This document shows, one piece after another, positions 25,369 through 64,000 of a stretch of DNA of 64,000 nucleotides (the stretch's first letter is position 1; the number at the start of each line of letters is the position of its first letter). The position numbers were made by a program, and so were the translations under genes. The stretch spans positions 6,086,139 through 6,150,138 of the forward strand of contig OZ004596.1 of the NCBI GenBank assembly GCA_963924555.1. The letters are read 5' to 3'. The notes under the pieces are model-generated. The model was not told where the DNA came from. It searched no databases and saw nothing but the letters and a program-made list of their open reading frames with translations. This stretch comes from Crambe crambe. Taxonomy: Eukaryota > Porifera > Demospongiae > Poecilosclerida > Crambeidae.

Positions 25369-26231
25369 ATGGAGAAGTGTGAAAAAAAGCCACACTGTTA
25401 CACTGTAAATATGCCACAAGCCGCAGAGGAGCTTGCTATAAAGGAGAGAGAGGCTTTAGAAGTGATCAAAGAGGATCTTTGCCAATGGTTAGCTGAGCTT
25501 CTGCACATAGATGTCACCACAGCCACTTTCTGGGATGCTCTGGACACTGGAGTACTTCTCTGCAAGCTAGCTAAGCTTATACAACAAAAAGCTAAAGTGA
25601 AAAAGGGTGAAGTAAATCTAGCTATTCCAAATAGCGATGTGAAAGTAAATGAAAAAGCTACTCCTGAATCATTTGCTGCTCGTGATAATGCATCAAACTT
25701 CATTTCATGGTGTCGGCAGCTGGGTGTGGAGGAAGCTGTTATTTACGAGTCTGAAGGATTGGTACTGCACAAGGATGAGAAGAGAGTGATTCTATGTCTT
25801 CTTGATGTGGCTCGATTTGCAGAAAGGGTTGGAATCTCTCCACCTCAGTTGGTTCGCATGGAGAAAGAGATTGACAATAAATCTCTGGAGAAACCATCAC
25901 ACAAGGGGCCCAAAAGATCACTTCAAGAAAAGGTGATGGTAAAGTTGAGCAGCTGTAAATGTCCAAGAAATCCACTTCAAGTCCTCAGTTCAAATGAAAG
26001 TGGAACATTTGTCATATCTGGAGGCACAATTAGAGGAGAAAAGACACTTTATGCTAGAGTGAGTTTTGATCATGATTGATCTGTGCATGATTCATTCTTT
26101 TTCTTTTCCCCTAGGTGTTGAGTGACCGTATAATGGTGCGTGTTGGTGGAGGCTGGGATACACTAGACCATTTCCTTTTGGTGCATGACCCATGCAGAAT
26201 TCATACTTTCATGTTACAAATAAAAGCATAA
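25369..26231 (+). CDS. GAS2-like protein with full CH and GAR domains (gene A)
   Basis: Actin-microtubule linker of the growth-arrest-specific 2 family: the CH domain binds F-actin and the GAR domain binds microtubules. Two exons, 25369-26058 and 26115-26231, give 268 residues (human GAS2 313). CH, residues about 28-165: [97 protein letters not shown], residues about 185-262: [31 protein letters not shown], then after the intron [20 protein letters not shown] and PCR. ATG 25411 (MPQAAEEL) is an alternative start. The intron inside GAR is at the same place in genes B-E, so A represents the plain form of the family. Confidence 0.94.
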
Positions 26232-26350
26232 CTCACAGACTCAAAGCTAGCCTAGCTGGCTATAGTCCATATACACGTACACACAATTAATGTATAGTCA
26301 CGTGACAAAATTCCTGCGCGCGCGCATCAATAGTATTGCAAGCAGTAGAT

Positions 26351-27835
26351 ATGGCAAGCCTAACAGTCGAGCTCCATACCGTGCAGCTTTTTCAGCTTAA
26401 AGATGTGTATGCCATAGCCCAGGAGGTGGGCGAGCAATTCCATGGACTCATACAGCAGTTTGGAAACTCATACTTATCGGACTTAGTCAACACAGTGGTC
26501 CATACCCTGGAGCTCTTGGAGACTTCTGTAGGGAACAATCAGGAATTACAAGCACGAACATGCAAGTTGTTACTGGATAATGATACCCTCGTCAAGGAAA
26601 ATCAACGGTTAAAAGTGGAAGCTCAAAAAAATTCTGTAAGTTAGAGCCATTATCTTGCAAGTTAATCAAACTGGAGCCCCACCCATTTCTAAATTAGTCT
26701 ATCCCTGTATAAGCCCTGCCAAAACAGATTTTCAGATAAGGGAGTTTATTGTATCAATCAATCTTTCACTAGGCAACCTTGGCATCAGTAGAATCAGAGA
26801 AGAAAAAACTATTATTACAACTAGAAGCTGAAAGGGAGATAAATAACGAGTTACGGAAGAATTTTGAGGAAACTGCATGCCAACTGGACAGAACTTATAA
26901 GGAAAATCCAGAAAGTTTGCATGATGACAAGGAAGGTAGAGTTGAAGACATCAATGAAGGGGCTAATAATAGTCCGAGTCACATGGATACCAAGACTGAT
27001 ATCATGGAAATTCCCAGGATGAAGCGAAGACTAGCACAGATGGAGAATGAACTCAAAAGAACTAGAAGCAAGCTATTGAGTGCACAGTCTACACTGAAAG
27101 TAAGAGTGAAAGTAAAGTTTAGATATGTGTATGCCTTATAAAGGGGCTGTTATAATATTCAAGTGCATAGTATCAGAAAATAATGTACTGAAGGCACAAT
27201 TAGAGGACTCTAAAGCAGAAATTGGTCTGCAATCACTACAGGTAATGTTTGAATATAACATACTTCATTATAAAGTCATTATTATTATTATTATTCTTAG
27301 CTGACAAAAACTGAGGGAAGATGTCATGGCCAAGAATCGCCTAAGTTTTTTAAGAAAGATCTACTTGCAGTCTTGAGGGAGAGGAATGAATTAAAGGAAG
27401 AAGTGGACAGTCTCAGGGATGAACTCAACCTGACAAAACTGTAAGGACAAAGGCTCAATAGTTCCAATTATGTAACCTGTCTGTGCTGATGTCATACAGT
27501 CACCACATGTATTACTGTAGCATATCAATAGAACTATATATACTTTTAATTTCAAGTCTGATAGTCTGATAATAATTTTTTAGACAAATTCGATACCAGT
27601 ACCACCAACATGACAGCATTGATTCAGAAGCTAAAGGACTAGAAGCACAAGACACAGGTTTACAGAGAACCAGATCAAACACTAAAGTTAGGGATATGTA
27701 AGTATTAGCTAATGATGATACAGTGTCCGTAGGAGTATCTCATGGATTTCTTCATTCCTCAGAGTAACTTCATTAGCAAATCCTGCTCAAAAGGACAAAA
27801 AGACTAAGAAAGCCTCACGAAAGTCAGTTTCTTGA
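26351..27835 (+). CDS. RILP-like protein (RH1 and RH2 coiled-coil adaptor)
   Basis: Family members bind Rab GTPases and dynein or kinesin partners and act in lysosome, ciliary or centrosome transport. Six exons join in phase to 338 residues: 26351-26635, 26773-27099, 27164-27241, 27301-27440, 27584-27697, 27763-27835. RH1, residues about 13-65: FQLKDVYAIAQEVGEQFHGL, IQQFGNSYLSDLVNTVVHTL, ELLETSVGNNQELQ. A coiled coil follows (KKKLLLQLEAEREINNELRK, MKRRLAQMENELKRTRSKL). RH2 near residue 260: FFKKDLLAVLRERNELKEEV and DSLRDELNLTK, the ERNELK core of RILPL1/2 and JIP3/4. The C-terminus is Lys-rich. A poly(A) signal AATAAA is at 27914. Assignment as RILPL rather than RILP is by length and motifs only. 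Confidence 0.82.
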
Positions 27836-29057: not shown

Positions 29058-32000
29058 ATGTACTTGGTTATTGAAGTAATAAAAGGTCTGCTTCCCAAGC
29101 AAGCAGCAGTACTGGCATGCAAGGTCAAACCTCCAGAATCAGAATATTTCACAAAGTGTAAGATGCGCTTCCGTAGAGCTGCATCAAGAAGTTCTGTCAT
29201 CAAAAAATGTCCAATTTATTTCTTTAAATGTGAGAAATATCCAGAACAATTGAAATTTCTGTTTACAGTGGTAACTAGAAATCGCGAAGTAATTGCTTAT
29301 GGTGAATATCCTCTGACTTTCAATAAAGCATTCTTCAGTAGAATCACCACCCTCCCTACCAAATTAAATGGAAAAATACAAGTGCTGGAGCTCACCCCTA
29401 GAAAAATTGATTATGATGAAGAGATTCTTCTCTGGTTTAGGATTAGGGAGACTAAACCTAAAGATCCATCAACTCGGAATCCAAATAGATCACCACAAAC
29501 TGCTTATGAGACTCCTGCTCTAACTGCTGTTGAAACCAAGGCAGATCCTATTGCTGAGTCTGACTCTGAAAATAGAAATGAATCAAATGATGCTGTGAGA
29601 TCTACTGATACAATTAATAAGTTACCCAAGTTGAACCTCAACCTCATTGATCAATCACCCAAGATCACACCTGCAGAACCCAATTTAAACAGAGCTCATG
29701 ATAAACAATATATGGACAATCGGTTCCTCAAGTCTCCGTTAATAAAAGAAGAGTTACTAACTCCTAGTGTTAATTCCCTTAAATCGCCATTAACTCCTAG
29801 TGATCAGTACTTTGCGTCTCTGTTACATTTGCAATCAACGTCTGTTGATCATTCTCCACTCCAATCTGTTGATCTAGATCAGTACTTAAAGTCTCCACTC
29901 CTATCAACAACATTAACCCCTATTGATCAGTACCTCAAGTCCCCATTCCAATCTGTTGACTTTGATCAGCTTCTCAAGTCTCAACTCCAATCTCCTGTTC
30001 ATGCTGCTGATCAAGACTTCAAGTCTTCTTTACAAGATGAAACTCATGATGGTGATCAGGTTCTCAAATCTCAATTTCAACAGTCAACTCTATCACCAAT
30101 GTTGACCCCCAGTAATCTATACATCACATCTCAACTACAGCAATCAAAGTTAACTCCTGGTGACCAACATCTCCACTCTCAATTAAAAGAGTTAACTCCT
30201 GCTGATCATAAGTCTCCATTACAAGAATTGACTCCATTGAAAGAGTTAACTCTTGATAAACAACATCTCAAGATAGATCCGACTTATGATCATCATCTCC
30301 CAGTAGCTCCATGGTTTAATCATGGAGGCCTTACTCCTGGTTATCATCATTCTCCACAATTTGATTACAACAACCTTACTCCTGGAGACCAGCAAATGCT
30401 ACATGGTATCTTCACTCCTGGAGACCAGCATCTCAAATCTGGTCAACTGCCACATGGTGACTTTACTCCTGGAGACCAGCACCTCAAATCTGGTCAACCG
30501 CCACATGGTGACTTTACTCCTGGAGACCAGCACCTCAAATCTGGTCAACCGCCACATGGTGACTTTACTCCTGGAGACCAGCACCTCAAATCTGGTCAAC
30601 CGCCACGTGGTGTTTTTACTCCTGGAGACCAGCACCTCAAATCTGGTCAACCGCCACGTGGTGTCTTTATTCCTGGAGACCAGCACCTCAAATCTGGTCA
30701 ACTACCACATGGTGGCCATATTCCTGGAAACCATCTCAAATCTGTTTCAGCTGGTCAACCACCACAATTTGCTCATGACAACCTTACTCCTGGTGATGAT
30801 CACTATCTCTCAGCTGGTCAGTTTACTCATGGTGGTACTACTCCTGGAGACCAGCATCTCAAGTCCGTTCCAGCAGCTCATGATAACCTTACCCAGGGTG
30901 ATCAATCTGATGACAGGGTCTTCAAATCTGGTCAACCAGCACAGTTTATTCATGACAACCTTACTCAGGGTGATCAATATACTCCTAATGACCAGCTCTT
31001 CAATTCTGTTCCAGCTGGTCAACCAGCACAGTTTACTCATGATAACCTTACTCAGGGTGATCAATACACTTCTAGTGACCGGCTCTTCAAATCTGTTCTA
31101 GCTGGTCAACCAGCACAGTTTACTCATAGCAACCTTACTCAGGGTGATCAATATATTCCTAGTGATCGGCTCTTCAAATCTGTTCTAGCTGGTCAACCAG
31201 CACAGTTTATTCATGATAACCTTACTCAGGACAATCAATACACTCCTGGTGACCAGCACTTCAAATCTGTTCCAGCTGGTCAACCAACACATGACAACCT
31301 TACTCAGGGTGATCAATATACTCCTAGTGACCAGCTCTTCAAATCTGTTCCAGCTGGTCAGTTTATTCTTGCTCCTGGAGACAGATATGTTCCAGCACAA
31401 TTCACTCGGGATGGAGTTCAAAACCAGCATCTCAAACTTGTTCCAGCACAGTTCACTCATGACAACCATACTTTTGGTGACCAATCTGTCCCTCAACCAT
31501 CACCTCATGGTGACATTAATCCTAGTGATCACCATTTCAAATCTTTCCTAGCTGCTCAACCATTACCTCATGGCGACACTAGTCCTAGTGATCACCATCT
31601 CAAATCATTCCCAGCTGGTCGATTACCATGGCTTACCTTTACTCCTGGTGACAAAACTACCAGTCCTCATGAAACAAGTAGGGTGAAGCAAATTCCAAAG
31701 AGTCCTGTGAAATACAAGAGCAAATCTAGAAATAGTGGTAGAGTGAGTTCACAGTCCCAAAGTAAAAGGCTAATAAGTCAAAGCAGGCCATATTCCGATG
31801 CCAAATCTAGAAACCAGTACTTAAAACCTATCCGTGCCAATAATAGATCATCAAAGCTTGCACATGGTCCTGGCAATCAAGGTGTCAAATCTAATAATTC
31901 ACCACAGACTGCTCGTGGAAGTCGTACTCCTAGTAATCAACGCTTTAAAACTAATAACTCACCACAGTCTCCTCGTGGAAACCTTGGTCCTAGTGATCGG

Positions 32001-35000
32001 CGTTTCAAATCTAGTAATTCACCACAGCGAGCTCGTGGAAGTCGTACTCCTAGTAATCAACGCTTTAAAACTAATAAATCACCACTGCCTCCTCGTGGTC
32101 CTAGCAATTGGCATCCTCCTCGTAGAAGTCTTACTCCTAGTAATCAACGCTTTAAAACTAACAAATCACCACTGCCTCCTCGTAGAAGTCTTATTACAGG
32201 TGATCGGCATTTCAAATCTAAACTCACTAATAAACAACTTAAGACTAATGGTTCTATACTTGCTGATGGATCAACTGGTGGTTTCCCAGTGGCTGGTTTC
32301 ACCCTGACTTCTGATAATCAGTATCTCCAAACTGATAAATCCTCATGGTTCACTCCTAGCATCCCTATTCCTGATACATCATTACAGTTCATTAATGGTG
32401 ACTTCACTCGTGGCAATCAGTATTTCAAATTTGCCTCTGCTGGTCAGTCATCACAGGCCACTTTTAGTGCTGTCACTCCAGATGCAGAATATTTCAAACT
32501 CAATTTTGTCCCTGTTGATCAACCACCACAAGTTACCCGAGGTGATCGTACTCCTGGTGAGCAGTATCTGGTCCCAGCTGGTCATGGTAATTTTACTCCT
32601 AGTGACCGGTATCTGGTCCCAGCTGGTCATTTAGATGTCCTTACTGATGGTGATCAATATCTCCCAGGTGATCAACCAACATTGCTTGCATCTGCCATCT
32701 TTGAATCACCTGATTATATCAGTATGAAAAAAGGTAGTGCACATGCAGATGGTCAGTTTATATATCCACCTCATCAAGCCAATGATAACCAATCATCTGG
32801 ACCCACCAATGTTGTTGAACCACAAGAATCAATCAAATCCAGTGATCAGCACCTTGAGTCTCCTCTTATTAGTGATAATCAACAGCTTACTTCTAGCGAT
32901 CAGCAACTTAAGTCTTCTTCATCACCTACTACTACCGTCCATGAATTTGCTAACGATCAGCAGTTGACATCTACAAGTCAATCATCTGAGTTTCCTATAC
33001 CAGATAATTTCCAAAAAGTCACTTCCTCTGATCACTCACTAACTGGTGATCAACATCTCAAGACTTCTAGTGATCAACATTTGGACTTTACTGGTGACCA
33101 GACTCCTGGTGATCAACAGTTGGAGTCTACTTTCCTGATTCCTGCTGATCAGGCTCAGATTTCTACTGCTGACCAGACTCCAGCTAATCAGACTCCAGCT
33201 GACCGGACTCCAATTCCACCTGCTGATCAGACTTCACCTGATCAGACTCCACCTGACCAGACTCCACCTGCTGATCAGACTTCACACATTCCAGCTGATC
33301 AGACTTCTCCTGGTGACCGGACTCCAGCTGAACAGACTCCACCTGCTGATCAGATTTCACACATTCCAGCTGATCAGACTTCTCCAGCTGAACAGACTCC
33401 ACCTGACCAGACTCCACCTGCTGATCAGACTTCTCCTGCTGCAGCTGAACAGACTCCACTTGCACCTGCTGATCAGACTCCACACATTCCAGCTGATCAG
33501 ACTTCTTCTGCTGACCGGACTCCAGCTGAACAGACTCCACCTGACCAGACTCCACCTGCTGATCAGATTTCTTCACCTGATCAGACTCCTGCTGACTGGA
33601 CTCCAGCTGAACAGACTCCACCTGCTGATCAGACTTCACATATTCCAGCTGACCAGACTCTTGCTGACCAGACACTTGCTGACCAGACTCCACAAGCTGA
33701 TCATACTCAAACTGACCAGTCTCCTGCTGATCAGATTACTCCTGCTGATCAGACTCCAGCTGTTGACCAGACACTTGCTGACCAGGCTTCACCTGGTGAT
33801 CAGACTTCACCTGGTGATCATACTCCAGCTGACCAGTCTCCTGCTGATCAGATTCCCACTGACCAGACTCCAGCTCATCAGACTCCTGCTGATCAGACTC
33901 CAGCTGACCAGACTCCTACTGATCAGACTCCTGCTGATCAGACTCCAGCTGACCAGACTCCTACTGATCAGACTCCTGATCAGACTCCTGCTGATCAGAC
34001 TCCTGATCAGACTCCAGCTGACCAGACTCCTGCTGATCAGACTCCAGCTGACCAGACTCCTGCTGATCAGACTCCAGCTGACCAGACTCCTGCTGATCAG
34101 ACTCCAGCTGACCAGACTCCTGCTGATCAGACTCCAGCTGACCAGATTCCTGCTGACCATGATCAGCATCTGATCAAGTCCACTCTTGTTGGCCAATCAT
34201 CAAAATTTGGTACTCATCGCCACTTAGTTACTAGTCAAGTATCTCTTACTGCTGACCAACCTGAACCTGATCAGTGTCCTGCTACTTCAAGTGATGTAGA
34301 TAAGCTTTCCAATAGTCGTTCAAAGCACCGTAAAAAAAAATCTGTCATACGATCACCTTCCAATCCATCTCCTAAGCTTTCCAAATATGATTCTGTTAAT
34401 CAGATGCCTATAGCAACCATATCATCCATACATATCCCTGGAAATCGGTCCCCTACTGAGTCCAATGAGCAAAGACAATCATCCTCTGCTTTTTTTCCAG
34501 CCATACAAAATATTGCTCATCATTCAGTATCTGCCTCTACTGTATCGTCTGCCAATCGGTCACCTCTCAACAAAAAATCAATCCGAAATCTCATTGAACA
34601 AGAACAAACTGAAGACCACGCACAAATTATTTCTCAGTCCATACAAAAAACTACTCGAGTGTCCAAATTTAAATGGCTTGAGTTATTACGGAATATATTT
34701 GGTCAGAAAACTCATCAACAACCAGTGAAACCTGCCACAGATGAAGTGGTCGGTTCTACGTCTGCTCTAACAATGTCTACTGTAACAACCAAGTCTAAAT
34801 TTAGTATCCAAGCATTGCGAAATATATTTTCACGAAAAGCCCAAAGCAAGCAGTTGGTTACTACTCAGTCTGAACAAAGTGCTAGTGCTAATGTGGTGAA
34901 ATCTGAAACTATTGATCATGTGGATGGATCTGCGTCCGGTATTACAGTGTTTAAAACAGTAACTAAATCGAGATTTAATTTTCAAACATTACGAAATAGA

Positions 35001-37381: not shown

Positions 37382-40495
<3,114 letters not shown>

Positions 40496-40506
40496 TTATA
40501 ACAGAA

Positions 40507-49288: not shown

Positions 49289-52200
49289 ATGTACATCAAG
49301 GTGGAGATAGTAGACGTCCAGCTTCCCAAGACGGTGAAAGTCCTTGCCTGCAAGATTCAACCTCCCGAGTCAGCCTTCCTTCTGGACTGTATTGTAAAAA
49401 CTCATCGTGTGTTTACTGGATCCAGCACCAACAGAGTTACATTCCCAGTTTTTTACTTTGAGTTTGAGAAATACCCTGATCATTTACTATTTCTATTTAC
49501 AGCTTCAAATAAATCTGAAGAAATTGGTCAGGGTACCTACCTTCTAACTTTCACGAAGCCACGCTTCCGCAAACCCATATTCCCAGAGGAACTCTCCGGA
49601 AAAACCCAAGCCATTACAATAAATTGCAAGGATCGAGATCGAAGGACATCTTCAAGTGGCAAAAATAGAGTCATATGGTTTACTATTTCAGAAGTGAAAC
49701 AAATCCCCCCTGAACCAACTACAAGAAGAAAACGAATGAAAGCATCATATGAAAATCAACCACAAAATGTCCCTTCTGATCGTGAACTATCCCCCTATGA
49801 TGACACAGCTGATTCCATCCGCCTTCATCGATCATCCATTTATCAGCACCAATCATCCATTCGATCAAACATCCGCCAGTACCAATCATCCATCCGCTCT
49901 TCTGTTGATCGCAGGGAATCCACTGCAATGTCTGTTAAACACAGGGAGTCCACTGTTAAACGCAAGGAGTCCACTGCAATGTCTGTTAGATCAGCAGCTG
50001 AGGTAACACCACCACCACACAATTCTAAATCTCTTTTGAAGAGACTAAGTTTCAAATTACTAAGACGAGGTTCAAAGAGTAACTTTATTGGTACAAACCT
50101 GATCTCTAGAGCTAGCAGTGTTGCATTCTTTGCCACTTTGGTTAACGAGTACATGACTGCTTTTGTCACCTTCCATTCTATCACTACACTGAGATCAGAA
50201 CTCATACATGATGATATTCTTACTCTAGCCTGTATTGGATCTTTAGTCGATATCAAAGAAGATTCGCTATTTTATGAAGGAAAGGGGCCCATTCATACCA
50301 TTCCTACCTTAAAACCATTCGTACTGAAATGCAGCGAAGAGCACGGACCAGTGTTGGAACTGCATGTGGTTAAAAAGGGAGTCGAGAAACCTCTTTTCTC
50401 TGCTTCTTGCCCTCTTTTTGATCTTATACCTTTCAAGCATTATTACTGGGAGTACAATCGGAAATGGCTTCCTGGTTTGAGTGGCTTCAATCCTGCACAT
50501 TCTCAAGGGCTTCAGCCTAATGTTGCTGTTTCCATTGTGTTCTGGCCCTCAGCTGCTACTTACCAGGACTACGAAGGACTAGAGGTCTATATAGGAGGAT
50601 TTGAAGCAAACCTTCTTTCAGAAACAAATATTGTCGTCTGTTGTCAACTTTCAAAAACCAGGAGCCAAAGGAGAAGTGGAAATGAAGATTTCAACATTGC
50701 AGTGTTACACCACTCTGACAGTCAGATGGACTCTGTTCCCGCTTACTTCTTTTATCCTTCATTTCCACATTTTAACTCTGGAGAAGACCATCAAATTGTG
50801 TTAACCTTCTATGCTGCCACCGATGCCGACCTTTGGTGGCACACAGACATAATGTCTTCAGCAATCATTGATATCCCCCGAGAAGTGGGACAATTGCTAT
50901 CTTCTGAGGAACACCAAGAAGGTGTGAGATGGGAGATGGAAGATGATATCACCCATGCTTCAGATAAATTTCCAGCAGTCAAGAGAATATATGGCATTTT
51001 ACGTTGGAAGCAGAAATTTATGCCATTTCTTTCATCTGCTGATGTTGCAAGGATATCAGAACGCCCAACTTTGGACAGAGCTACTAACTCAACATCTAAA
51101 ACAACTGTGACAAAGGCAAGCCAATCAGTCGATGACAGATCCAAGGGAAGTCTATCTATTCTTGACGACAAGTCAAAGGCAAGCCTTGACGAAAGGTCAG
51201 GGATCACTCCTCCCGATGAAAAATCCATGGCTAGTCTAAAGTCGGTTACAAGTTTACCTCGAGAGGAAAGATCGAAGGCTAGTGTCTCGAAGACTAGTGT
51301 CTCTCTTGATGACAAAAGCTCATCCAAAACTCAGTCATTTGATGATGGAAAGTTCAAGCTGATTGTATCTGATAATGAGGACTGTGAAGTTGACACAGCT
51401 ATACTCTCTCCTAGTAGTGGAAATACTAAGATTATTGTGTATCATGATAGAGGTGGTTGCATGGAGGAACCAAAGGCACCCTTTGATGAGTCCAAGTCAG
51501 AGACTCTTTCTCCTAATGCAAGTGCAAAGAAGACTCTTCTTCAGGATACAAGTGATCTATCTCTTGGTGCAATGGAGGAAACTTCACCCCCTTATGAAAC
51601 ATTAGAAGAAAATACAATGGTCCAAGAGAGTACGAAAAGTAATGCAATGGGAACCATTCCTAGTTCTGCAAATCATGAAGATATGAGCACCCTCAAGACT
51701 GAGATGACATCAAGTGAGGAACAAGATGGAAATAATATGTTAAGACCAGTACAAATTTTTGAAGGATCAGGTGATCATGCAGACAGTAGAAGCAAGCAGG
51801 GTATGTTACAGACTAGGAAAGCTCATTCCCTTGATCAGTGGGTGACAAGAGATGAGATGTCTGAAAATGATAATGCACTTGTTAGAACCAGGAAAGCATC
51901 ATCTCTTATAGAACAGGGAAAGATCATGAGAACATCATCTCTCGATGAAAAAATCTCATCATTAATAAGTTGTAGGAAAGCTGCACAGCAGGAAGGATCT
52001 TTTTCAAAGGATGCAAGCTTTTTGACTCTTGATGATATCAAGAGGCTGTCCTCAGATGATAAAAACTCAAACAATAGTGAGGTTAAGAGTCCCGTGGATG
52101 TAAAAAAGAAAAAGAAGTTCAAATGGGTACACCACATTGAGCAAGATCCAAATACTACAGAGACCATCAACACCTTGTTACAAGACGAACAGAATACACA

Positions 52201-54762
52201 GTTAAAGGAAACCACACACCCTCCATCTAGCATAGAGCTGTTTTCTGATGATGGAGAAAAACTTACAGATGTAGCATATGAGGCTAAAGGAGAAGAAACC
52301 AGATCATCTAAAGAAAGAAATGCAGAATCCAAGCATGATACCGAAGCTGAAGAAACCAACACTCCTCATAAGACCTCTGAGAGTACACAAGAGAAAGAAA
52401 TTCTGCCCCCCGACAGATCAAATAAAGATATTGAGACCCCTAAAAGTACACAGGACAAAAAAATTCCGCCCCCCGATGAATCAAATAAAGATATCGAGAC
52501 CTCTGAAAGTACACAGGACAAAAAAATTCCACCCCCCGATGAATCAAATAAAGATATCGAGACCTCTGAAAGTACACAGGACAAAAAAATTCCGCCCCCC
52601 GATGAATCAAATAAAGATATCGAGACCTCTGAAAGTACACAGGACAAAAAAATTCCGCCCCCCGATGAATCAAATAAAGATATCGAGACCTCTGAAAGTA
52701 CACAGGACAAAAAAATTCCGCCCCCCGATGAATCAAATAAAGATATTGAGACCTCTGAAAATACACAGGACAAAAAAATTCTGCCCCCCGATGAATCAAA
52801 TAAAGATATCCTTAATTCTGAAAGTACACAGAAGAAAAATCTAGATACCCCTGACAAAGATCCTCAAACTTCTGAGAGTATGCCAGACAATAGTCTAGTA
52901 CCACCCGCTGATAAACAGGCAGTTCCTGATGTTAGGGATAATACCGGTGATAAGTGTGAGAAAAACGTATCTCCCGACATTAAGGATGCATCTGGCTTAG
53001 CTCCCTCCACTGATGACACCTCTGAGATCAATCTACCCAATACTGATAAGCCCGAGTCAATTATGTCCATCAACCTTCTTGAAGGTAAGAAAGAGTATTC
53101 TGAAATATCAGAGAATGGTGACGAAGGCCAAAAGAAAGACTCCAAGGGGGAACTAGTCCCATCCAGTGATGAAAGAGAGATTGTTCTGTCACACAAGGAC
53201 AAAGGAGAAGAATATTCGCCTGCACCACTGGGCGGTGTTTCCAATGCAGAAAGAAATATCATAATTACAATAAGTGATCACAAAGATGAACAAAATAGTC
53301 CTCCACCCATTAATGAACAGTCTTCACCAAGCAAAGAACTCTCTTGTAGTGTGAAAGAGATAAAAAAAACAAAGGGAGATAAAGTGGATGCATGGACCTG
53401 CAGCAATGAGGTTCCATCACCTAAGACCATCTTGTCAACAGATAAATCTGACTCCTCCCCTACACTTGGGGCTGATTCCAAAGCAAACCTGACAATGGAT
53501 GAAGAACCTTACTTTCCTTACTACAACAAGAAAGGTGCTAGACCACTGATTCAGGATGAAGATTCCTCTCTCGGCACAGATTCTAAATCAACACTAACAG
53601 AATCTGACTTTTCCTACCTAGAAAGAAGGATCAGAAAGGGCAACCAGAGGCGGGTTAGAATAGATTCATACACTGTCCGACCCCAATCCCCTGATAGAAG
53701 GGACATACAATGCAAGACAGCCTTCCCATCACTGCAGGATAAAGAATCTGGCCATCAGAGAGTTAAACTCGAGAGAGAACACCATGGAGATAGGCAGCAA
53801 AGATCAAACAGTGAGAGCCAAGTGCGGGCCCCCTTAAAGAGGAGCAAAAGAAGTAGAGCTACCCTGCCACTATGCAAAAAGAATCAGAGTCGTATTGATT
53901 CCAGCTGTGCTACTACGACTGTCAAATCAGAATCCAATACAAACTTAGAGGAGGAAATGAAGAAAATTGGATTGCATCTTTTAAATGTAACTAGTGAAAG
54001 TACTGCAAGGAAAACCAACTCTGAATTAGGCGCATGGTCTCCACAAATGGATGTGGAGGAACTTCAATTCTGTGATTCAGAAGGACTCGTAGTGAACAAG
54101 AATAGAAGGAAAGTGATGCTGTGTTATCTAGACGTGGCAAAGTTTGCAGAAAAGATGACATTCGCCCCCCCAAAATGGATTCAAAAGTGTCAGGCACAAA
54201 AATCCAATCCCAGTCCTTTTCCACAATTAGTACCTGAAAAACCCAATGGGGAGTTCATAGAAAAGGTTTGTTTGATAACCCTTTTCTATCTTTATATATT
54301 CTTGTTACTGTACAGGTAATATCGAAGTTGAGGCAGTGTAAGTGTCAGAGAAATCCACTTAAAGTAATCAGTTCAAATGTAAATGGACATTTTGTTATCT
54401 CTGGTGGCAGAATTACAGGAAAGAAGACAATTTTAATTAGAGTAAGTGGGGAAATCGACAGATATAAAGCTTCAATAATGTGGCTGTAATGATTATGTTG
54501 TTGTAGGAGATACCAAGGATGAGTTGTAATTACTGTAAAAGGATTCGTTCAAGTGGTGTCTCTACTTTCATGGTACGCAGAGGAGGGGGCTGGGTACACT
54601 TAGATCACTTTCTACAAGAGTATGATCCATGCCGAATGCATATGACAGGTAAGCATGGATTACTTTATTATAACCAGTGTCATCTGATGGACTTTGATTA
54701 CAGCTGAACCATTCTCAAGAAGAACTATTCTAACTTCAGCACGCTACACTAGATACACGTAG
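49289..54762 (+). CDS. Multi-C2-like, repeat, half-CH and GAR protein (gene E)
   Basis: Four exons (49289-54265, 54316-54441, 54507-54648, 54704-54762) join in phase to 1767 residues. Residues 1-150: shared beta domain (LPKTVKVLACKIQPPESAFL, FPVFYFEFEKYPDHLLFLF). Residues about 155-280 are basic (RRESTAMSVKHRESTVKRKE; LLKRLSFKLLRRGSKS). Two further beta-sandwich-like domains, about 285-430 and 435-590, are shared only with gene F (FHSITTLRSELIHDDILTLA, FSASCPLFDLIPFKHYYWEY, FFYPSFPHFNSGEDHQIVLT, GILRWKQKFMPF). Residues 600-1550 are acidic and Ser-rich with a 20-residue repeat. Half-CH near 1553-1635 (DVEELQFCDSEGLVVNKNRR, LCYLDVAKFAEKM). GAR 1660-1757 (CKCQRNPLKVISSNVNGHFV, MVRRGGGWVHLDHFLQEYDP). 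ATG 49289 is chosen because its N-terminus aligns with B, C, D and F. Gene F starts 90 bp after the stop. Confidence 0.88.
52431..52811 (+). repeat. 60-bp coding repeat (ESTQDKKIPPPDESNKDIET)
   Basis: Six head-to-tail copies of a 60-bp unit, the middle four almost identical, in gene E, flanked by one degenerate copy on each side. Acidic and Pro-rich. Confidence 0.96.
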
Positions 54763-54831: not shown

Positions 54832-54852
54832 AAGAACGCCATTAGCGCAAAG

Positions 54853-57800
54853 ATGCCTGCAATTCAGATAGTTATTGAGAATGCTACTCTCCCAAAGAGA
54901 ATAGAAATCATAGCCTGTAAGGTAGAGCCTCCAGAGTCAGAAGTAGTTATCGAATGCAAGGTATCTTCACACGTATCTCACATGACAAAGACGAAGTATC
55001 CAATTTTCTATTTCGGATTCAAGAAAATCCCGAGATACCTGGTATTTAGGTTTGTGGTTGCAAATAGAAATGAAGAAGAAGGACATGGCAACTTTGCTAT
55101 GCAATTTGATGCTCAGAAATCCGGTTTTTTAAATTATAAGTCAGTAATTCCTCAAGCGATATCTGGAAAAACTCAAATAGTGCACCTTGTCTCCTCAATT
55201 CCAGGCTGTGACCCCTCAAAAGTGATCGGAAAGCTATGCTTCAATATAGTTGACTTGAACAGCATCCCTCCACAGGCTACTTCAACTCCCTTGCAACATA
55301 TTGGAATGCCTCCTACTCAGCAAGACAAGGACATTCTTGATCTGATTTCCAGAGAGAAAGGACTGGAATGTGTGGCTCCTTTGATCACTGATTATCCAAC
55401 TGTACTCATCATTTTCCATTCCTTCTCAACTCTGAGATCAGAGCTTCTACCTGAAGATATCATCAGTGTTGCGTGCTTGGGAACATCGTACTGCAAAATT
55501 AAGGAGGACCCTGTCTTGACCAAAGAAAAAGGACCAATTAACGTGATTCCTAACCTAAAACGTGTTAAATTAAGATGCCACAAAGAAAGAGATCAACTAT
55601 ATCTGGAACTGCATGTGTTAGACAAGGCAAACTCGTGCTCTTTTTTCTCAGCTTCATGTCCCATTGTCGACCTGATTCCCTTTCAATACTATAACTGGGA
55701 ATACAGCTGGAAAATGCTGCTTGGTACAAATCCAAGCAGTTTCACCTCATCATCACAAGAAAATAGTGCAACTGTCACCCTTGCTTACTGGCCTGCACTC
55801 TCAGATTATCCAGAATACAAAGGGCTCGAGTTTTTTATTAGATGTCCTGAGATTAACACCCATTATGAAACAGCAGATTTGATTCTCTGCTGTCAACTTA
55901 GACCTAAAAGGCAAAGTCTTTTGAATTCTGATATCGTATATAGCATACCATTTGTACATCTCCAAAGAGAGGATGAAGTGATCCATGAAAAGGTACAAAT
56001 AGCAGTGTTGCGAAGCTATTCTGATGGTTCAACATTGCATGCCCTTCCTGGATATTTTTTCTTCCCTAACTTTAACTTTGGAATTGACCATCAAGTTTTT
56101 TTGACCTTTTATGTGTGCCCTCAGTACGATCCTGGTGTTTGGTGGGGCACCAAAGTGGTTTCTTTGGCTGTATTGAATATTTACAGCGATATGAAGCAAG
56201 TTTTAACTAACCAAGAAGGCATGAGGTGGGAGTTGTGTGAAGAGGCCATGTCTCACTCCACAGAGATCCTTCCACCCCTCAACAAAATAAGTGGTATTTT
56301 ACGTTGGAAACAAAGAAATATGAAATTTCTCTCTGCTGATACCATATCAAAGGATTTTTCAAGACTCCCATTAATAGAAAATGCAACACATGGTTTAACA
56401 GAAAAGAAGATCCACAATACTAAATTACGAGAAGAAGTGAACAGACTAAGAAGAGTTATAACTTTAACACAAGACTCCCTTTCTAAAGATATCAAACACC
56501 AGAAGAAGGAGCTCTCTAAACAGTTAGAAATGCCAGTACAGCAGCAGTTCCACAGTGACTTGGATAGGGAAAATTTAGAGTTACATAGAGAAAACTCAAG
56601 ATTAAAACAGAAAGTTTTGACTTCCAGCAGGGAGTCACTTAAAATTCTCTCAAGAGATATCCAAGACCAAGAAGAAATTATCCTAGAGTTTCGTAAAAAA
56701 TACGAAGAACTAAAGAAGAAGAACGAAGAGTATGAGAGGTGTATTAAAAGCATGGAAACTTCTATTGAAGATACTAAGCAAGATCCCACACTATTAATAA
56801 TGGAGGATGATATGGCCGAGTTACGTGAAGAAAATTCAAAACTTAAAGCAGAGATTTACAAATATGAGCAATTTATGAAAGATATGGAAGCATCGACGGA
56901 GGCTGTCAAGCAAGACCCTACAATGTCCATGGAAGACATTCATACTAGTATAGGATTCATCTCTAACCGCTTACAGTGTGAGATAAAATCCAAGCAGCTC
57001 CTCAAAAGGAAAATGGATAACAGTATTGCCACTTTAAATAGAGACAATCTAAAACTGAAAAAGGAGATTGAAAAGCGTGAGAAACACATAGAAGTATCCA
57101 TCAAAACTGCCAGAAAAGAAGACAATAAACTCTCAAGAAAAGATCTTCTTAATAAGATAGGGTACATTTCCAACTGCTTAGAGATGGAGATGAAAGATAA
57201 AGAACTCCAAAGAAAGAAAATGGAGGAAGATATTCTCCAGTTACGTAAAGAAAATTTACAACTGAAGATGGTTACAAGTCTGGAATTATCTGAACCAGAT
57301 CATACATCATCAAAAGAAGAACTTCTTAAAAAGATAGTGCTCCTCACAAATCACTTGGAGACAGCAATGCAATCAAAGCTGCTCCTTGAAAAGGAAATGG
57401 AGGATTTGAAGGAAGAGCATGAATTGTATCTTAAAGAGATAGAAATATGCACTGAAGATACCAGCTATCAAGATAAACTCTCTAAACAGAAGTATGATAA
57501 ATTTGTGTTCGTCTCAAACTGCTTGAAAGCGGAGAAGAAATCCAAACAGTTACTGAAAGAGAAACTGGATAAGGAGATATTTGAATTACGCAGAAGAAAT
57601 AGAGAGTTAGGAGAGGACAAAGAATGTGAGAAATATACAGAGCTTGATGAATATAAGAAGAAAGTTTTTGAGTTAAGTGAAGAAATTCAAGACTTGAAAA
57701 AGGAGAAAGAAAGTTTAATGGAAGACACTAGATCCACAAAACAAGATCTCACACACTGTCAAGACCTTCTGGATGAGATAGAGTCCATTTCCACATCACT

Positions 57801-60800
57801 GGAGTCAGAGAGAAAATCCAAGCGACTCCTCGAAAAGAAAATGGAGGAAGATATTCTCCAGTTACGTCAAGAAAGTCTGGAACTGAAACTGAAGAATGAG
57901 AAGTTAATGGAAGCTGTGAAACAAGATTCTATATCCATGTGCTCTGAGGAAGAGATAGAATTCGACCAGCTCCTTGAAGATGAGAAATTTCTCCAATTAT
58001 ATCGAAAATATTTGAAAATGAAAACAGAGAATGAAGAGAATAGAAAATTGATTGGACATTTAGAGGCATCCAGTGAAGGCTCTACACAATCCAAGAAAGA
58101 CCTTCAAGATGAGATAGACTCCATCTCCAAATGCCTGGAGGCAGAGATAGAATCCGAAAGGAAAATGGAGGAAGATATTCTCAAATTACAGCAAGAAGGT
58201 CTGAAACTGAAAAAAATGAATGAACATTATGAGAGGATTATTGAAGATACAGAAAAATATATTAATCATACACTGTCCAAAGATGATCTTCATGATCGAA
58301 TAAGCTCCATCTCTGGTCTCTTGGCTAAAGTAAAAGAATCACATGAAGAGAAGAATGAAGGAATGAAAGATCTGGCCAGTGAAGAAGACAGCCAAAATTA
58401 CATAGTAGACTTTCAGAATAAGGTAGAGTCCATCTCCATGTGCCTGGAAGTAGAGAGAAAATCCAAGCAGCTTCTCAAAATGAAAATGGAGGAAGATATT
58501 CTCCAGTTGTATCAAGAGAATCTGAAAATGAAACAGGAGAACGAGAAATTAATGGAAGGAGTTACGATGACATCCATTGAAGAAGATTCCACTTATAATA
58601 AAGACCTTCTGGATGAGATAGAGTCCCTCCACATGTGCCTGGAGGCAGAGAGAGAATCCAAGCAGCTCCTTCAAAAGAAAATGGAGGAAGATATTCTCCA
58701 GTTGAGTCAACTGAAACAGGAGAATGAGAAGTTAATGGAAGATATGGTGAAGCAAGATTTTACGCTATCCAAGGGAGAACTTCAGGATGAGGTATATTCT
58801 CTCTCCAAGTGCTTGGAGGCAGAAAGAGAATCTAAGCAACTCCTTGAAGAGAATATTTGCCAGTTACATCAAGAAAATTGGAAACTGAAACAGGTGAATG
58901 AGAAGCTAATGGAAGACATGGAGACATCCATTGAAGGTTCGATACTCTCCGAGGAAGAGCTTCAGGATGGGACATATTCACTCTCCAAGTGCTTGGAGGC
59001 AGAAAAAGAATCTAAGAAGCTCCTTGAAAAGAATATTTGCCAGTTACATCAAGAAATTTGGAAACTGAAACAGGAGAATGAGAAGTTGATGGAAGACATG
59101 GAGGTATCTATTGAAGCAGCTAAACATGGTTTCATACTATCTGAGAGTAAAGTAGAGTCCATCTCCAAGTACTTAGAAGAAGAGAAGGAGTCAAAGCAGT
59201 TTCTTGAAGAAAAATGGGAGGAGGAAATTTTTGAGTTACGTAAAGAAAATATTAAATTAAAAGGAGAGAACAAAATGTTTAAAACATCTCAAGAAATCAA
59301 AGAATTGCAAATGCAGGAAGATATTTTCAAGTTAAGTGAAGAAAACAAAAAATTGCAAGATGAGAATGAAATGTGTGAGAAGTTCATTAAAGATTTGGAA
59401 AAATCAAATGAAGCAATCAAAGAAGACTTTTATAATCAGATAGGCTTCATCTTAGAGACAGAGATGCAGTCCAAGGACCTCCTTGAAGAGAAATTCAAGG
59501 ATGTAATTCTTGAGCTACGTAAAGAAAATGTGAAGTTAAAGGAAGAGAATGAGGAGAGTAATAAAGACGAGAAGACATCCAGTGAAGTCCAAGAGAATAT
59601 CCTCAGGCTAAATGAAGAAAATCTGAAACTGAAAAGGGAGAATGAAGATCTTAAAAGGTTTAATGAAGATACAGGAAAATCCAATGAAGCTCATCACCTT
59701 GAACATAAAGGAGATATTCAGAGATTGGAGAAAGAGAATGAGAAATATGCAAATTTAATTGAAGACACAAATAAATGTACTGAAGTCTTCAGAAAAGAGC
59801 TTTCCTTTTTATCTAGTCGTTTAGATGCAGAAGTAAAATCCAAGGAGCTCCTAAAACAGAGAATGGAGGAGGATATTCTTGAGTTGCGCAAGGAGAATGT
59901 GATACTAAATGAGGCAAATGAGAAGTATGAGAAGCGTGTTAAAACCATAGCAACATCTGATAAAGCTGAGAAACTTAAAATGGAAGAGGACATCATTGGG
60001 TTAACTGAAGAAAATGAAACACTGAAAAAAGAGAACAACGATCTTAGGAGATTAAATGAAGAGGTGGAAAAATCCACCGAAATACGTGAACTGGAACATG
60101 TAGAATCCAAAGAAGATCTTCATAGTCAGATTAAATCCATCACTGACTGCTTTGAGGCAGAAATGCACTCCAAGAAGCTTCTTGAAAAAGAGTTGGAGAA
60201 AGAAATGCTTAAGTTATGCGAAAAAAATGAAAAATTGAAAAGGGAGAATGAAAATCTTATGAAAATAAATGAAGAGACAGAAAAATCTGCTGAAGCACGT
60301 GAACTGGAGCACATAGAATCCAAAGAAGATCTTCATAGTCGGATTAAAGCCATCACTGACCACTTAGAGGCAGAAATGAGTTCCAAAAAGGTTCTTGAAG
60401 AAGAATTGAAGAAGGAAATGCTTGAATTATACAAAGAAAATGAAAAACTGAGAAGGGAGAATGAAAATGAAGAGATAGAAAAATCCACTGAAGTTGATGA
60501 ACTGGGACATAGTTTGGAGTCCGAAGAAGATCTTCATTATCAGCGTAAATCCATCACTGACCGCTCACTGTGCTCAGAGACAGAAATGCATTCCAGAGAC
60601 AGTCTTAAGGAAGAGACAAGAAAATCATCTGAAGTTAGTGAACTGAAACGTAGAGAATCTGAAGATCTTTATAGTCAGAGTAAATCCATCACTGACCGCT
60701 CACTGTGCTCAGAGACAGAAATGCATTCCAAAAAGGACAGCCTTAAGGAAGAGATGGAAAAATCATCTGAAGTTAGTGAACTGGAACATAGAGAATCTGA

Positions 60801-63800
60801 AGATCTTTATAGTCAGAGTAAATCCATCACTGACCGCTCACTGTGCTCAGAGACAGAAATGCATTCCAAAAAGGACAGTCTTAAGGAAGAGACGGAAAAA
60901 TCATCTGAAGTTAGTGAACTGGAACGTAGAAAATCTGAAGATCTTTATAGTCAGAGTAAATCCATCACTGACCGCTCACTGTGCTCAGAGACAGAGATGC
61001 ATTCCAAAAAGGACAGTCTTAAGGAAGAGACAGAAAAATTATCTGAAGTCAGTGAACTGGAACGTAGAGAATCTGAAGATCTTTATAGTCAGAGTAAATC
61101 CATCACTGATCGCTCACTCTACTCAGTGCGTTCCAAAAAGGACAGTGTCGAGGAAGAGACAGAAAAATCAACTGAAGCTAGTGAACTGGAACGTAGAGTA
61201 TCTGAAGATCAGAGTAAATCCATCACTGACCGCTCACTCTACTCAGTGCGTTTCAAAAAGGACAGTCTTGAGGAAGAGACAGAAAAATCAACTGAAGTTA
61301 GTGAACTGGAACGTAGAGTATCTGAAGATCTTTGTAGTCAGAGTAAATCCATCACTGTGTGTTCCAAAAAGGACAGTCTTGAGGAAGAGACAGAAAAATC
61401 TACTGAAGCTAGTGAACTGGAACGTAGAGAATCTGAAGATCTTTGTAGTCAGAGTAAATCCATCACTGACCGCTCACTCTACTCAGTGCGTTCCAAAAAG
61501 GACAGTCTTAAGGAAGAGACAGAAAGATCAACTGAAGCTAATGAACTGGAACGTAGAGTATCTGAAGATCTTTATAGTCAGAGTAAATCCATCACTGTGC
61601 GTTCCAAAAAGGACAGTCTTAAGGAAGAGATAGTAAAATCAACAGAATCTAGTGAACTGGAAACTAGAGTATATGAAGATCTTTATAGTCAGAGTAAATC
61701 CATCACTGACCACTCACTCTACTCAGTGCGTTCCAAAAAGGACAATCTTAAGGAAGAGACAGAAAAATCAACTGAAGTCGATGAACTGGAACGTAGAGAA
61801 TCTGGAGATCTTTACAGTCAGAGTAAATCCATCACTGACCGCTCACTCTGCTCAGCGACAGAAATGCATTCCAAAAAGAACAGGCTGGATGAAAGTGAAG
61901 GCAGACATTTTGGTCTGCCAAGGCGAATGTTTCCCTCATGGGGGCCCATCATTGACCGATCCCAGGAAGAGACAGAAAAATCATCTGAAGTTAGTGAACT
62001 GGAACGTAGATTCTCTGAAGATCTTAATAGTCAGAGTAAATCCATCACTAACCGCTCACTCTACTCAGTGCGTTCTAAAAAAGACAGTCTTAAGGAAGAG
62101 ACAGGAAAATCTAGTGAACTGGAACGTAGAGAATCTGAAGATCTTTATAGTCAGAGTAAATCCACCACTGACCGCTCACTCTACTCAGTGCATTCCAAAA
62201 AGGACAATCTTGACGAAGAGAATGGAAAATTAACAGAAGCTAGTGAACTGAAACGTAGAGAATCTGAAGATCTTTATAGTCAGAGTAAATCCATCACTGT
62301 GCGCTCCAAAAAGGACAGTCTTAAGGAAGAGATAGTAAAATCAACAAAAGCTAGTGAACTGGAACGTAGAGAATCTGAAGATCTTTATAGTCAGAGTAAA
62401 TCCACCACTGACCGCTCAGTGCGTTCCAAAAAGGACAGTCTTGAGGAAGAGACAGAAAAATCAACTGAAGCTAGTGAACTGAAACATAGAGAATCTGAAG
62501 ATCTTTATAGTCAGAGTAAATCCATCACTGACCGCTCACTCTACTCAGTGCATTCCAAAAAGGACAGTCTTGAGGAAGAGACAGAAAAATCAACTGAAGC
62601 TAGTGAACTAGAATCTGGAGATCTTTATAGTCAGAGTAAATCCATCACTGACCGCTCAGTGCGTTCCAAAAAGGACAGTCTTGAGGAAGAGACAGAAAAA
62701 TCAACTGAAGCTAGTGAACTGAAATGTAGAGAATCTGAAGATCTTTATAGTCAAAGTAAATCTATCACTGATCGCTCACTCTACTCAGTGCATTCCAAAA
62801 AGGACAGTCTTGAGGAAGAGACAGAAAAATCAACTGAAGCTAGTGAACTGGAACGTAGAGAATCTGGAGATCTTTATAGTCAGAGTAAATCCACCACTGA
62901 CCGCTCAGTGCATTCCAAAAAGGACAGTCTTGAGGAAGAGACAGAAAAATCAACTGAAGCTAGTGAACTGAAACGTAGAAAATCTGAAGATCTTTATAGT
63001 CAGAGTAAATCCATCACTGACCGCTCACTGTGCTCAGAGACAAAGATGCATTCCAAAAAGGACAGTCTTAAGGAAGAGACAGAAAAATCAACAGAAGCTA
63101 GTGAACTGGAACGTAGAGAATCTGAAGATCTTTATAGTCAGAGTAAATCCATCACTGACCGCTCACTCTACTCAGTGCGTTCCAAAAAGGAGAATCTTGA
63201 GGAAGAGACAGAAAAATCAACTGAAGCAAGTGAACTGGACCGTAGAGAATCTAAAGATCTTTATAGTCAAAGTAAATCCATCACTGACCGCTCACTCTAC
63301 TCAGTACGTTCCAAAAAGGACAGTCTTGAGGAAGAGACAGAAAAATCAACAGAAGCTAGTGAACTGGAACGTAGAGAATCTGAAGATCTTTGTAGTCAGA
63401 GTAAATCCATCACTGATCGCTCACTCTACTCAGTACGTTCCAAAAAGGACAGTCTTGAGGAAGAGACAGAAAAATCAACTGAAGCAAGTGAACTGGAACG
63501 TAGAGAATCTGAAGATCTTTATAGTCAAAGTAAATCCATCACTGACCGCTCACTCTATTCAGTGCATTCCAAAAAGGACAGTATTAAGGAAGACACAGAA
63601 AAATCAACTGAAGTCAGTGACCTGGAACGTAGAAAATCTGAAGATCTTTATAGTCAGGGTAAATCCACCACTGACCGCTCAGTGGGTTCCAAAAAGGACA
63701 GTCTTGAGGAAGAGACAGAAAAATCAACTGAAGCTAGTGAACTGAAACATAGAAAATCTGAAGATCTTTATAGTCAGAGTAAATCCATCACTGACCGCTC

Positions 63801-64000
63801 ACTCTACTCAGTGCGTTCCAAAAAGGAGAGTCTTGAGGAAGAGACAGAAAAATCAACTGAAGCAAGTGAACTGGACTGTAGAGAATTTAAAGATCTTTAT
63901 AGTCAAAATAAATCCATCACTGACCGCTCACTCTACTCAGTGCGTTCCAAAAAGGACAGTCTTGAACATAGATTATCTGAAGATCTTTATAGTCAAAGTA
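54853..64000 (+). CDS. Giant C2-like and coiled-coil repeat protein, open at the window's 3' edge (gene F)
   Basis: One uninterrupted reading frame of at least 3049 codons with no intron. Start MPAIQIVIENATLPKRIEII aligns with genes B-E. Residues 1-150: shared beta domain (VEPPESEVVIECKV, YPIFYFGFKKIPRYLVFRF). About 185-310 and 315-490: two more beta domains as in gene E (FHSFSTLRSELLPEDIISVA, FSASCPIVDLIPFQYYNWEY, FPNFNFGIDHQVFLTFYV, GILRWKQRN). Residues 510-1875: coiled coil rich in Glu, Lys and Leu with a repeating unit of 58-65 residues (SISKCLEAE.ESKQLLEKKM, EEDILQLRKENLKLK). From about 1879 to the window end: roughly 27 copies of a 38-46 residue unit (ESEDLYSQSKSITDRSLYSV, RSKKDSLEEETEKSTEASEL). 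No half-CH or GAR is reached; by analogy they may follow downstream. Likely a long filamentous scaffold. Confidence 0.85.
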   Translation, partial: MPAIQIVIENATLPKRIEIIACKVEPPESEVVIECKVSSHVSHMTKTKYPIFYFGFKKIPRYLVFRFVVANRNEEEGHGNFAMQFDAQKSGFLNYKSVIPQAISGKTQIVHLVSSIPGCDPSKVIGKLCFNIVDLNSIPPQATSTPLQHIGMPPTQQDKDILDLISREKGLECVAPLITDYPTVLIIFHSFSTLRSELLPEDIISVACLGTSYCKIKEDPVLTKEKGPINVIPNLKRVKLRCHKERDQLYLELHVLDKANSCSFFSASCPIVDLIPFQYYNWEYSWKMLLGTNPSSFTSSSQENSATVTLAYWPALSDYPEYKGLEFFIRCPEINTHYETADLILCCQLRPKRQSLLNSDIVYSIPFVHLQREDEVIHEKVQIAVLRSYSDGSTLHALPGYFFFPNFNFGIDHQVFLTFYVCPQYDPGVWWGTKVVSLAVLNIYSDMKQVLTNQEGMRWELCEEAMSHSTEILPPLNKISGILRWKQRNMKFLSADTISKDFSRLPLIENATHGLTEKKIHNTKLREEVNRLRRVITLTQDSLSKDIKHQKKELSKQLEMPVQQQFHSDLDRENLELHRENSRLKQKVLTSSRESLKILSRDIQDQEEIILEFRKKYEELKKKNEEYERCIKSMETSIEDTKQDPTLLIMEDDMAELREENSKLKAEIYKYEQFMKDMEASTEAVKQDPTMSMEDIHTSIGFISNRLQCEIKSKQLLKRKMDNSIATLNRDNLKLKKEIEKREKHIEVSIKTARKEDNKLSRKDLLNKIGYISNCLEMEMKDKELQRKKMEEDILQLRKENLQLKMVTSLELSEPDHTSSKEELLKKIVLLTNHLETAMQSKLLLEKEMEDLKEEHELYLKEIEICTEDTSYQDKLSKQKYDKFVFVSNCLKAEKKSKQLLKEKLDKEIFELRRRNRELGEDKECEKYTELDEYKKKVFELSEEIQDLKKEKESLMEDTRSTKQDLTHCQDLLDEIESISTSLESERKSKRLLEKKMEEDILQLRQESLELKLKNEKLMEAVKQDSISMCSEEEIEFDQLLEDEKFLQLYRKYLKMKTENEENRKLIGHLEASSEGSTQSKKDLQDEIDSISKCLEAEIESERKMEEDILKLQQEGLKLKKMNEHYERIIEDTEKYINHTLSKDDLHDRISSISGLLAKVKESHEEKNEGMKDLASEEDSQNYIVDFQNKVESISMCLEVERKSKQLLKMKMEEDILQLYQENLKMKQENEKLMEGVTMTSIEEDSTYNKDLLDEIESLHMCLEAERESKQLLQKKMEEDILQLSQLKQENEKLMEDMVKQDFTLSKGELQDEVYSLSKCLEAERESKQLLEENICQLHQENWKLKQVNEKLMEDMETSIEGSILSEEELQDGTYSLSKCLEAEKESKKLLEKNICQLHQEIWKLKQENEKLMEDMEVSIEAAKHGFILSESKVESISKYLEEEKESKQFLEEKWEEEIFELRKENIKLKGENKMFKTSQEIKELQMQEDIFKLSEENKKLQDENEMCEKFIKDLEKSNEAIKEDFYNQIGFILETEMQSKDLLEEKFKDVILELRKENVKLKEENEESNKDEKTSSEVQENILRLNEENLKLKRENEDLKRFNEDTGKSNEAHHLEHKGDIQRLEKENEKYANLIEDTNKCTEVFRKELSFLSSRLDAEVKSKELLKQRMEEDILELRKENVILNEANEKYEKRVKTIATSDKAEKLKMEEDIIGLTEENETLKKENNDLRRLNEEVEKSTEIRELEHVESKEDLHSQIKSITDCFEAEMHSKKLLEKELEKEMLKLCEKNEKLKRENENLMKINEETEKSAEARELEHIESKEDLHSRIKAITDHLEAEMSSKKVLEEELKKEMLELYKENEKLRRENENEEIEKSTEVDELGHSLESEEDLHYQRKSITDRSLCSETEMHSRDSLKEETRKSSEVSELKRRESEDLYSQSKSITDRSLCSETEMHSKKDSLKEEMEKSSEVSELEHRESEDLYSQSKSITDRSLCSETEMHSKKDSLKEETEKSSEVSELERRKSEDLYSQSKSITDRSLCSETEMHSKKDSLKEETEKLSEVSELERRESEDLYSQSKSITDRSLYSVRSKKDSVEEETEKSTEASELERRVSEDQSKSITDRSLYSVRFKKDSLEEETEKSTEVSELERRVSEDLCSQSKSITVCSKKDSLEEETEKSTEASELERRESEDLCSQSKSITDRSLYSVRSKKDSLKEETERSTEANELERRVSEDLYSQSKSITVRSKKDSLKEEIVKSTESSELETRVYEDLYSQSKSITDHSLYSVRSKKDNLKEETEKSTEVDELERRESGDLYSQSKSITDRSLCSATEMHSKKNRLDESEGRHFGLPRRMFPSWGPIIDRSQEETEKSSEVSELERRFSEDLNSQSKSITNRSLYSVRSKKDSLKEETGKSSELERRESEDLYSQSKSTTDRSLYSVHSKKDNLDEENGKLTEASELKRRESEDLYSQSKSITVRSKKDSLKEEIVKSTKASELERRESEDLYSQSKSTTDRSVRSKKDSLEEETEKSTEASELKHRESEDLYSQSKSITDRSLYSVHSKKDSLEEETEKSTEASELESGDLYSQSKSITDRSVRSKKDSLEEETEKSTEASELKCRESEDLYSQSKSITDRSLYSVHSKKDSLEEETEKSTEASELERRESGDLYSQSKSTTDRSVHSKKDSLEEETEKSTEASELKRRKSEDLYSQSKSITDRSLCSETKMHSKKDSLKEETEKSTEASELERRESEDLYSQSKSITDRSLYSVRSKKENLEEETEKSTEASELDRRESKDLYSQSKSITDRSLYSVRSKKDSLEEETEKSTEASELERRESEDLCSQSKSITDRSLYSVRSKKDSLEEETEKSTEASELERRESEDLYSQSKSITDRSLYSVHSKKDSIKEDTEKSTEVSDLERRKSEDLYSQGKSTTDRSVGSKKDSLEEETEKSTEASELKHRKSEDLYSQSKSITDRSLYSVRSKKESLEEETEKSTEASELDCREFKDLYSQNKSITDRSLYSVRSKKDSLEHRLSEDLYSQS
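57770..59500 (+). repeat. Degenerate 174-195 bp coding repeat in the coiled coil of gene F
   Basis: The motif (E/V)SISKCLEAE.ESKQLL recurs at about 57775, 58111, 58420, 58615, 58789, 58975, 59149 and 59440. Regular spacings are 195, 174, 186 and 174 bp. The repeats are diverged, so this is an older amplification than the tail array. Confidence 0.8.
60490..64000 (+). repeat. Serine-rich 114-138 bp coding repeat array at the 3' edge
   Basis: About 27 units built on ESEDLYSQSKSITDRS, then an optional LYSV or LCSETEMH piece, then RSKKDSLEEETEKSTEASEL. Units differ by in-frame loss of the optional piece. The array continues past the window end. Confidence 0.93.

Follow-up and report, generated by a model that had tools for sequence, protein, structure and literature searches.

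In GAS2, actin is contacted by residues 13–31 (ABD1), 107–111, and 127–145 (ABD2), and the GAR domain inserts into the intradimer groove of tubulin (PMC12084551). Here we describe genes B–E, part of a tandem series in a 64,000-nucleotide window of the sponge Crambe crambe (G000:C19:6086139–6150138; positions below are counted from the start of the window). Their predicted products combine a C2-like head of ~136 aa, a low-complexity linker, and one or two tails made of the C-terminal half of a CH domain (half-CH) followed by GAR. We regard this fusion architecture, and an origin of B–E by fusion, as highly probable.

Proteins B–E resemble GAS2 and GAS2L1-3 in that GAR scores above the Pfam cut-off, the C-terminal CH half is kept, and an intron inside GAR also occurs in the nearby GAS2 genes A and H. 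They differ in that the N-terminal CH half is gone, a C2-like head is present, the length is 871-2745 aa, the tail is doubled in B and D, and the residue at GAS2 position 266 is acidic. The GAS2 family is recognized by a complete CH3 domain, which is whole in gene A and incomplete in B–E. Because of this incompleteness, B–E would not be counted as GAS2 family members. Like the spectraplakins MACF1 and dystonin, B–E are very long and end in GAR. However, when the giant exons of B–E, and F as far as position 63999, are scanned with Pfam, no spectrin, EF-hand, plakin, or tandem CH domain is listed at E <= 0.01, and judged by sequence B–E are not spectraplakins. A spectraplakin-like gene, by our own reading of spectrin-like and EF-hand-like exons, lies at G000:C15:1878000-1887999; its GAR is split elsewhere than in the C19 genes.

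Like B–E, Trypanosoma SNAP1 carries a GAR-type domain at its C-terminus without belonging to GAS2; it combines this domain with a coiled coil and is part of a microtubule structure. According to the available part of its description, the SNAP1 domain is without most zinc and tubulin contacts (PMC10656233), whereas B–E retain the zinc pattern, R252, GGG, and W257; the term "C2 domain" is absent from that paper. CCDC33 and Tetrahymena C2D1 resemble genes F and G and the database proteins P0003-P0010 in joining C2 domains to a coiled coil (the coiled coil by reading and a modelled helix). Homology with them is only putative, the likeness of CCDC33 being one of described domain content, and the available parts of the papers on them mention no CH or GAR. 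In the literature searched (for related terms, titles and abstracts), no published description of an architecture with C2, GAR, and microtubules was found, in agreement with an earlier note on this DNA that knew of no family with this order of parts.

Organization of the giant genes

Open reading frames (ORFs) place genes A to F on the + strand, from 25369 to 64000. Gene B (29058..37220) has 6 exons and a 2579-aa model. Its C2-like head of ~136 aa (29058..29465; identified by head searches, with the fold taken from the model of F) is followed by the linker and two half-CH + GAR tails (B1, 35403..36104, introns 35724-35774 and 35898-35956; B2, 36167..36961, intron 36655-36702 and none inside GAR). 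Gene C (37382..40173; introns 39692-39810 and 39934-39990) encodes a head, a linker, and one tail in an 871-aa model that may lack a last 3' exon. Gene D (40711..49166; 5 exons, 2745-aa model) has a head, a linker, and two tails, and gene E (49289..54762; 4 exons, 1767-aa model) has two more beta domains between head and linker and a single tail. Gene F (54853..64000, open to 65802 in the flank) encodes a head, two more beta domains, a helical or coiled-coil region, and long repeats. The earlier note was right that B–F are consecutive, lie on one strand, and share an N-terminal beta domain; in a search of the organism's own genome (143 Mb in 119 contigs, match counts being lower bounds), the head of D finds at least six matches, all within the cluster B–G. 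The series extends past the window to gene G (66079–70629; head, two more beta domains, helical repeats). The one tail per gene that had been described is found in C and E, and not in B and D, which carry two.

The gene models of A, B, C, D, E, and H contain 16 introns picked by hand, all GT–AG and frame-keeping; 13 measure 48–65 bases and the others 119, 172, and 203. All six tails have an intron immediately before GAR that A and H do not have. Another, within GAR, is common to A, H, B1, C, D1, and E; B2 and D2 lack it. Shared intron positions at these CH-fragment and GAR ends had been pointed out in the earlier note. With exon joins chosen by hand on genomic sequence alone, the heads with their giant ORFs and the GAR exons might come from separate genes or transcripts. 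We give this reading hardly any weight, since head, linker, and half-CH occupy one uninterrupted exon in all four genes (2222, 770, 2401, and 1659 stop-free codons in B, C, D, and E). These exons have 0 stops, and each of the other five frames has 32–323. In addition, the open frame of B continues through the first intron into GAR, and in D a single open exon (48150-48746) holds the last part of GAR 1 together with the second half-CH. The second tail is joined via a 62-base intron in B and via an open exon in D, and both genes end in a common short last exon, FISVG(A/S)LYG(K/R)IC.ETRV. The broad agreement of the head and tail trees, described below, also argues against separate transcripts. 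From B through G, each stop codon is followed by the ATG of the next gene after about 90–540 bases (counted with F starting at 54856; its ATG is at 54853).

The linkers of B–E comprise some 500–2100 low-complexity residues. Their repeats had been called private, which does not hold wholly, because B and D share two motifs. A GDxxLKS-type pattern, picked post hoc, has 10 matches in B and 25 in D (shuffle means 0.08 and 0.1). The basic motif KSRFS..ALR..FS.K occurs in 4 copies in B (residues 1865-2051) and once in D (1997-2016); with a profile made from the B copies, those in B and D exceed all 500 shuffles (14.0 vs 4.1 bits). A conserved SSIHIPGNRSPTES block, the NRSPTES block, is also present in the linkers, at B 1796 and D 1811. 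This block and the KSRFS..ALR motif are possible binding motifs.

The half-CH fragment

The fragment is homologous to the last ~60 aa of the CH domains of A and H: these reach 84.9 and 83.7 bits with a profile of the six half-CH sequences, and none of 1000 shuffles scores above 7.6 bits. The half-CH of D finds at least eight matches in its own genome, namely B1, B2, C, D1, D2, E, A, and H, and B1 matches human GAS2 over residues 118–168 only (E 1.5e-8). A profile of the N-terminal CH half matches only A and H, with F, G, B, and the database relatives at noise (<=2.0 bits). PF00307 is unlisted for 6/6 tails at E values as high as 10, given the filters that HMMER applies. F and G have no half-CH by profile and no GAR match in their stretch.

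These results bear on the reading of B–E as GAS2-type cross-linkers, with CH on F-actin and GAR on microtubules. The half-CH does retain the ABD2 region (GAS2 127-145), and R144 is kept in B1. However, of the actin contacts of GAS2, the first (ABD1) is missing in B–E, the second (ABD2') is degenerate by alignment, and the third is only partly kept; moreover, the N-terminal CH half is found nowhere in B–G, and the tails have no PF00307 match within the limits just given. Because that half is missing, B–E are unlikely actin–microtubule linkers, and the half-CH has probably given up actin binding of the GAS2 kind. We consider the cross-linker reading quite improbable. Of the very long cytoskeletal linkers proposed earlier, the microtubule side is likely, if modified, and the actin side is unlikely in the absence of ABD1.

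The GAR tails

PF02187 (GAS2/GAR) scores above its curated cut-off in all six joined tails, with only the C-terminal part of GAR aligned. The genome holds at least 10 GAR pieces: eight C19 domains (A, H, B1, B2, C, D1, D2, and E) and two from one C15 gene. The CxC and DPC motifs, R252, GGG, and W257 are retained in 6/6 tails. Microtubule binding by the tails of B–E is likely, but probably in modified form.

The heads and their relatives

Structures were predicted for the head region of F and of E. In these models the head, as the earlier note had supposed, and the third domain resemble C2 folds. Pfam lists no C2 family in the heads, the giant exons, or the relatives; apart from the expected CH and GAR and from low noise, it lists only an Apg6 coiled coil in G, below cut-off, and an extensin-like hit in the repeats of B, far below it. 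Kinship with CEP120 was considered and set aside; its C2A is among the structural matches and ranks no higher than other C2 domains.

Besides G (P0002), eight database proteins of 892–1215 aa (P0003–P0010) are alignable across the three domains and continue into an apparent coiled coil. No half-CH is found in them (best 3.8 bits). In the sponge genome, P0004 matches E, F, and G at E 1e-72 or better, followed only by matches at E 0.025–0.34. A protein-database search with residues 1–580 of E retrieves G and three relatives, and an alignment-based search retrieves seven proteins, five of them new (best 7994 candidates scored). A search with gene C finds only itself among candidates of 0.55–1.75x its length, and B–E may have orthologues elsewhere.

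The family might consist of ciliary-tip proteins of the CCDC33/C2D1 type, namely E, F, G, and the heads, with B–E as ciliary-tip chimeras that carry a GAS2 module. The appeal of the ciliary tip is that CCDC33 and C2D1 bring C2 domains and microtubules together at that site (PMC11870508, PMC11642885). We hold this reading, which overlaps with the one that we prefer, of B–E as long microtubule tethers, to be possible but doubtful. Many other C2 domains score equally well or better, and C2 folds are common; 9nw3_3A is one of many C2 matches, and 9nw3 is not among the matches listed for the better model, that of E. PDB sequence searches with the E/F/G family (0, 5, and 21 matches) list no axonemal protein, P0004 having no match and the others mainly coiled-coil noise. 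The X-box is not enriched upstream of the heads (best mismatches 3, 3, 3, 4, 4, and 4, against a background of mostly 3–4), and C2D1 is called nonconserved by its authors in the available part of their paper (PMC11642885). Equally tentative is the picture in which B–E would be very long membrane-to-microtubule springs with one or two tails, which the lineage made by taking over the tail of a gene next door and which consist of a ciliary-tip C2/coiled-coil protein and a GAS2 lattice module with a half-CH that does not bind actin.

Descent and constraint

The heads branch as ((F,G),(E,(C,(B,D)))), with bootstrap values of 97–100%. The tail tree joins B1 with D1 (100/99), C with B1 + D1 (81/85), B2 with D2 (100/99), and A with H (97/95). 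The two trees broadly agree, indicating joint descent of head and tail. The ratio of nonsynonymous to synonymous substitution rates (dN/dS) between B and D is 0.37 in the head, 0.39 in the first tail, and 0.62 in the middle; between F and G it is 0.35 in the head and 0.23 in the second and third domains. These values indicate that both ends are constrained and the linker less so. Between F and G, the synonymous rate (dS) is about 0.10 in the second and third beta domains and about 0.35 in the heads, a low divergence that looks as if gene conversion had occurred recently.

Proposed origin and mechanism

The earlier note had a GAS2-like gene growing by local expansion. The tandem family and the kinship with a nearby GAS2 gene stand, but the direction probably does not: eight three-domain relatives are without half-CH, which makes it likelier that a C2/coiled-coil gene acquired a GAS2 tail than that a GAS2 gene became large. 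A gene for three beta (C2-like) domains and a coiled coil, of the kind kept as F and G, probably took over the 3' end of a GAS2 gene beside it, with the C-terminal half of CH, GAR, and the GAR intron. An E-like fusion would then have duplicated. In the B/C/D line, which has long low-complexity linkers, beta domains two and three would have disappeared, and the tail would have doubled in the ancestor of B and D.

In the mechanism that we propose, B–E would be long, flexible microtubule tethers of local-fusion origin, anchored by the C2-like head. The GAR tails would bind the microtubule lattice and no actin, and the predicted C2-like head would hold a membrane or a partner at the other end. B and D, with two tails, may bundle or bridge two microtubules or gain avidity. 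We put the chances of this mechanism at about even.

Several observations weigh against it. Position 266 is E or D in 6/6 tails, whereas GAS2, MACF1, and H have K there and A has V, and the GAS2 substitution K266E raises the dissociation constant to ~10.6 uM (PMC12084551). From CxC to DPC, B–E count 73–78 residues plus one, compared with 63 in A and 60 in H, and the 10-15 GAR residues that B–E have in excess of A sit before the MVRVGGGW strand. Some GAR-like domains, SNAP1 for example, do not bind microtubules (PMC10656233). The E tail clusters with A + H and not with the other fused tails, with weak support (81/86). Confidence in the head-region models is low (pLDDT 53 and 62), the head match is seen with the model of F and not among the 50 matches listed for that of E, and no separate match is seen for the second beta domain.

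The acidic 266 and the longer GAR would suit tails that act as docking modules, in which GAR recruits a partner other than microtubules, a role that has been reported for GAS2L3 and proposed for SNAP1 (PMC10656233). However, CxC/DPC, R252, G255, and W257 are retained in every tail, whereas SNAP1, in the available part of its description, is without 3/4 of the zinc ligands and 4/5 of the basic contacts (PMC10656233). We consider docking rather unlikely. For microtubule tethers, two-tail avidity in B and D may offset the weakened contact at 266.

Neighbouring genes and upstream motifs

Gene A (25369..26231, + strand) has the plain GAS2 layout ascribed to it, a full CH and a GAR in 268 aa, with intron 26059-26114 inside GAR. 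It matches the human GAS2 structure 9kbx at E 1e-35 over GAS2 residues 18–169. It had been placed next door to the series, but between A and B are exons of a RILP-like gene not of the family (26306..27304, + strand; PF09744 RH1, E 7.5e-15). A second plain GAS2-type gene, H, with CH and GAR in a 413-aa model, lies upstream on the - strand (window coordinates about -7000 to -5488).

An NRF1-like palindrome, TGCGCATGCGCA, lies 32–72 bp upstream of the head ATGs, with <=2 mismatches at 5/6 heads and 3 at B; 19/600 stretches of the same region match as background. Sites include 37316, 40659, 49218, and 54821. The test is post hoc, the motif having first been spotted by eye, and other genes also have the motif nearby (23561 and 26315), so that it no more than hints at separate promoters. 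A perfect (TC)n array of 127.5 copies (40178-40432) lies just 5' of gene D.

Implications

A stretch of about 78 kb contains likely donors (A, H), the kind of recipient (F, G), and the products (B–E). The locus would thus preserve a still readable domain capture between neighbours, with a common intron and broadly agreeing trees. What we call new here is a set of predicted GAR-tailed cytolinkers with a new head, from local gene fusion. They would add giant GAR proteins without the actin-binding N-terminal CH half to those known, and B–E may serve as a natural test of which parts of CH–GAR microtubule binding requires.
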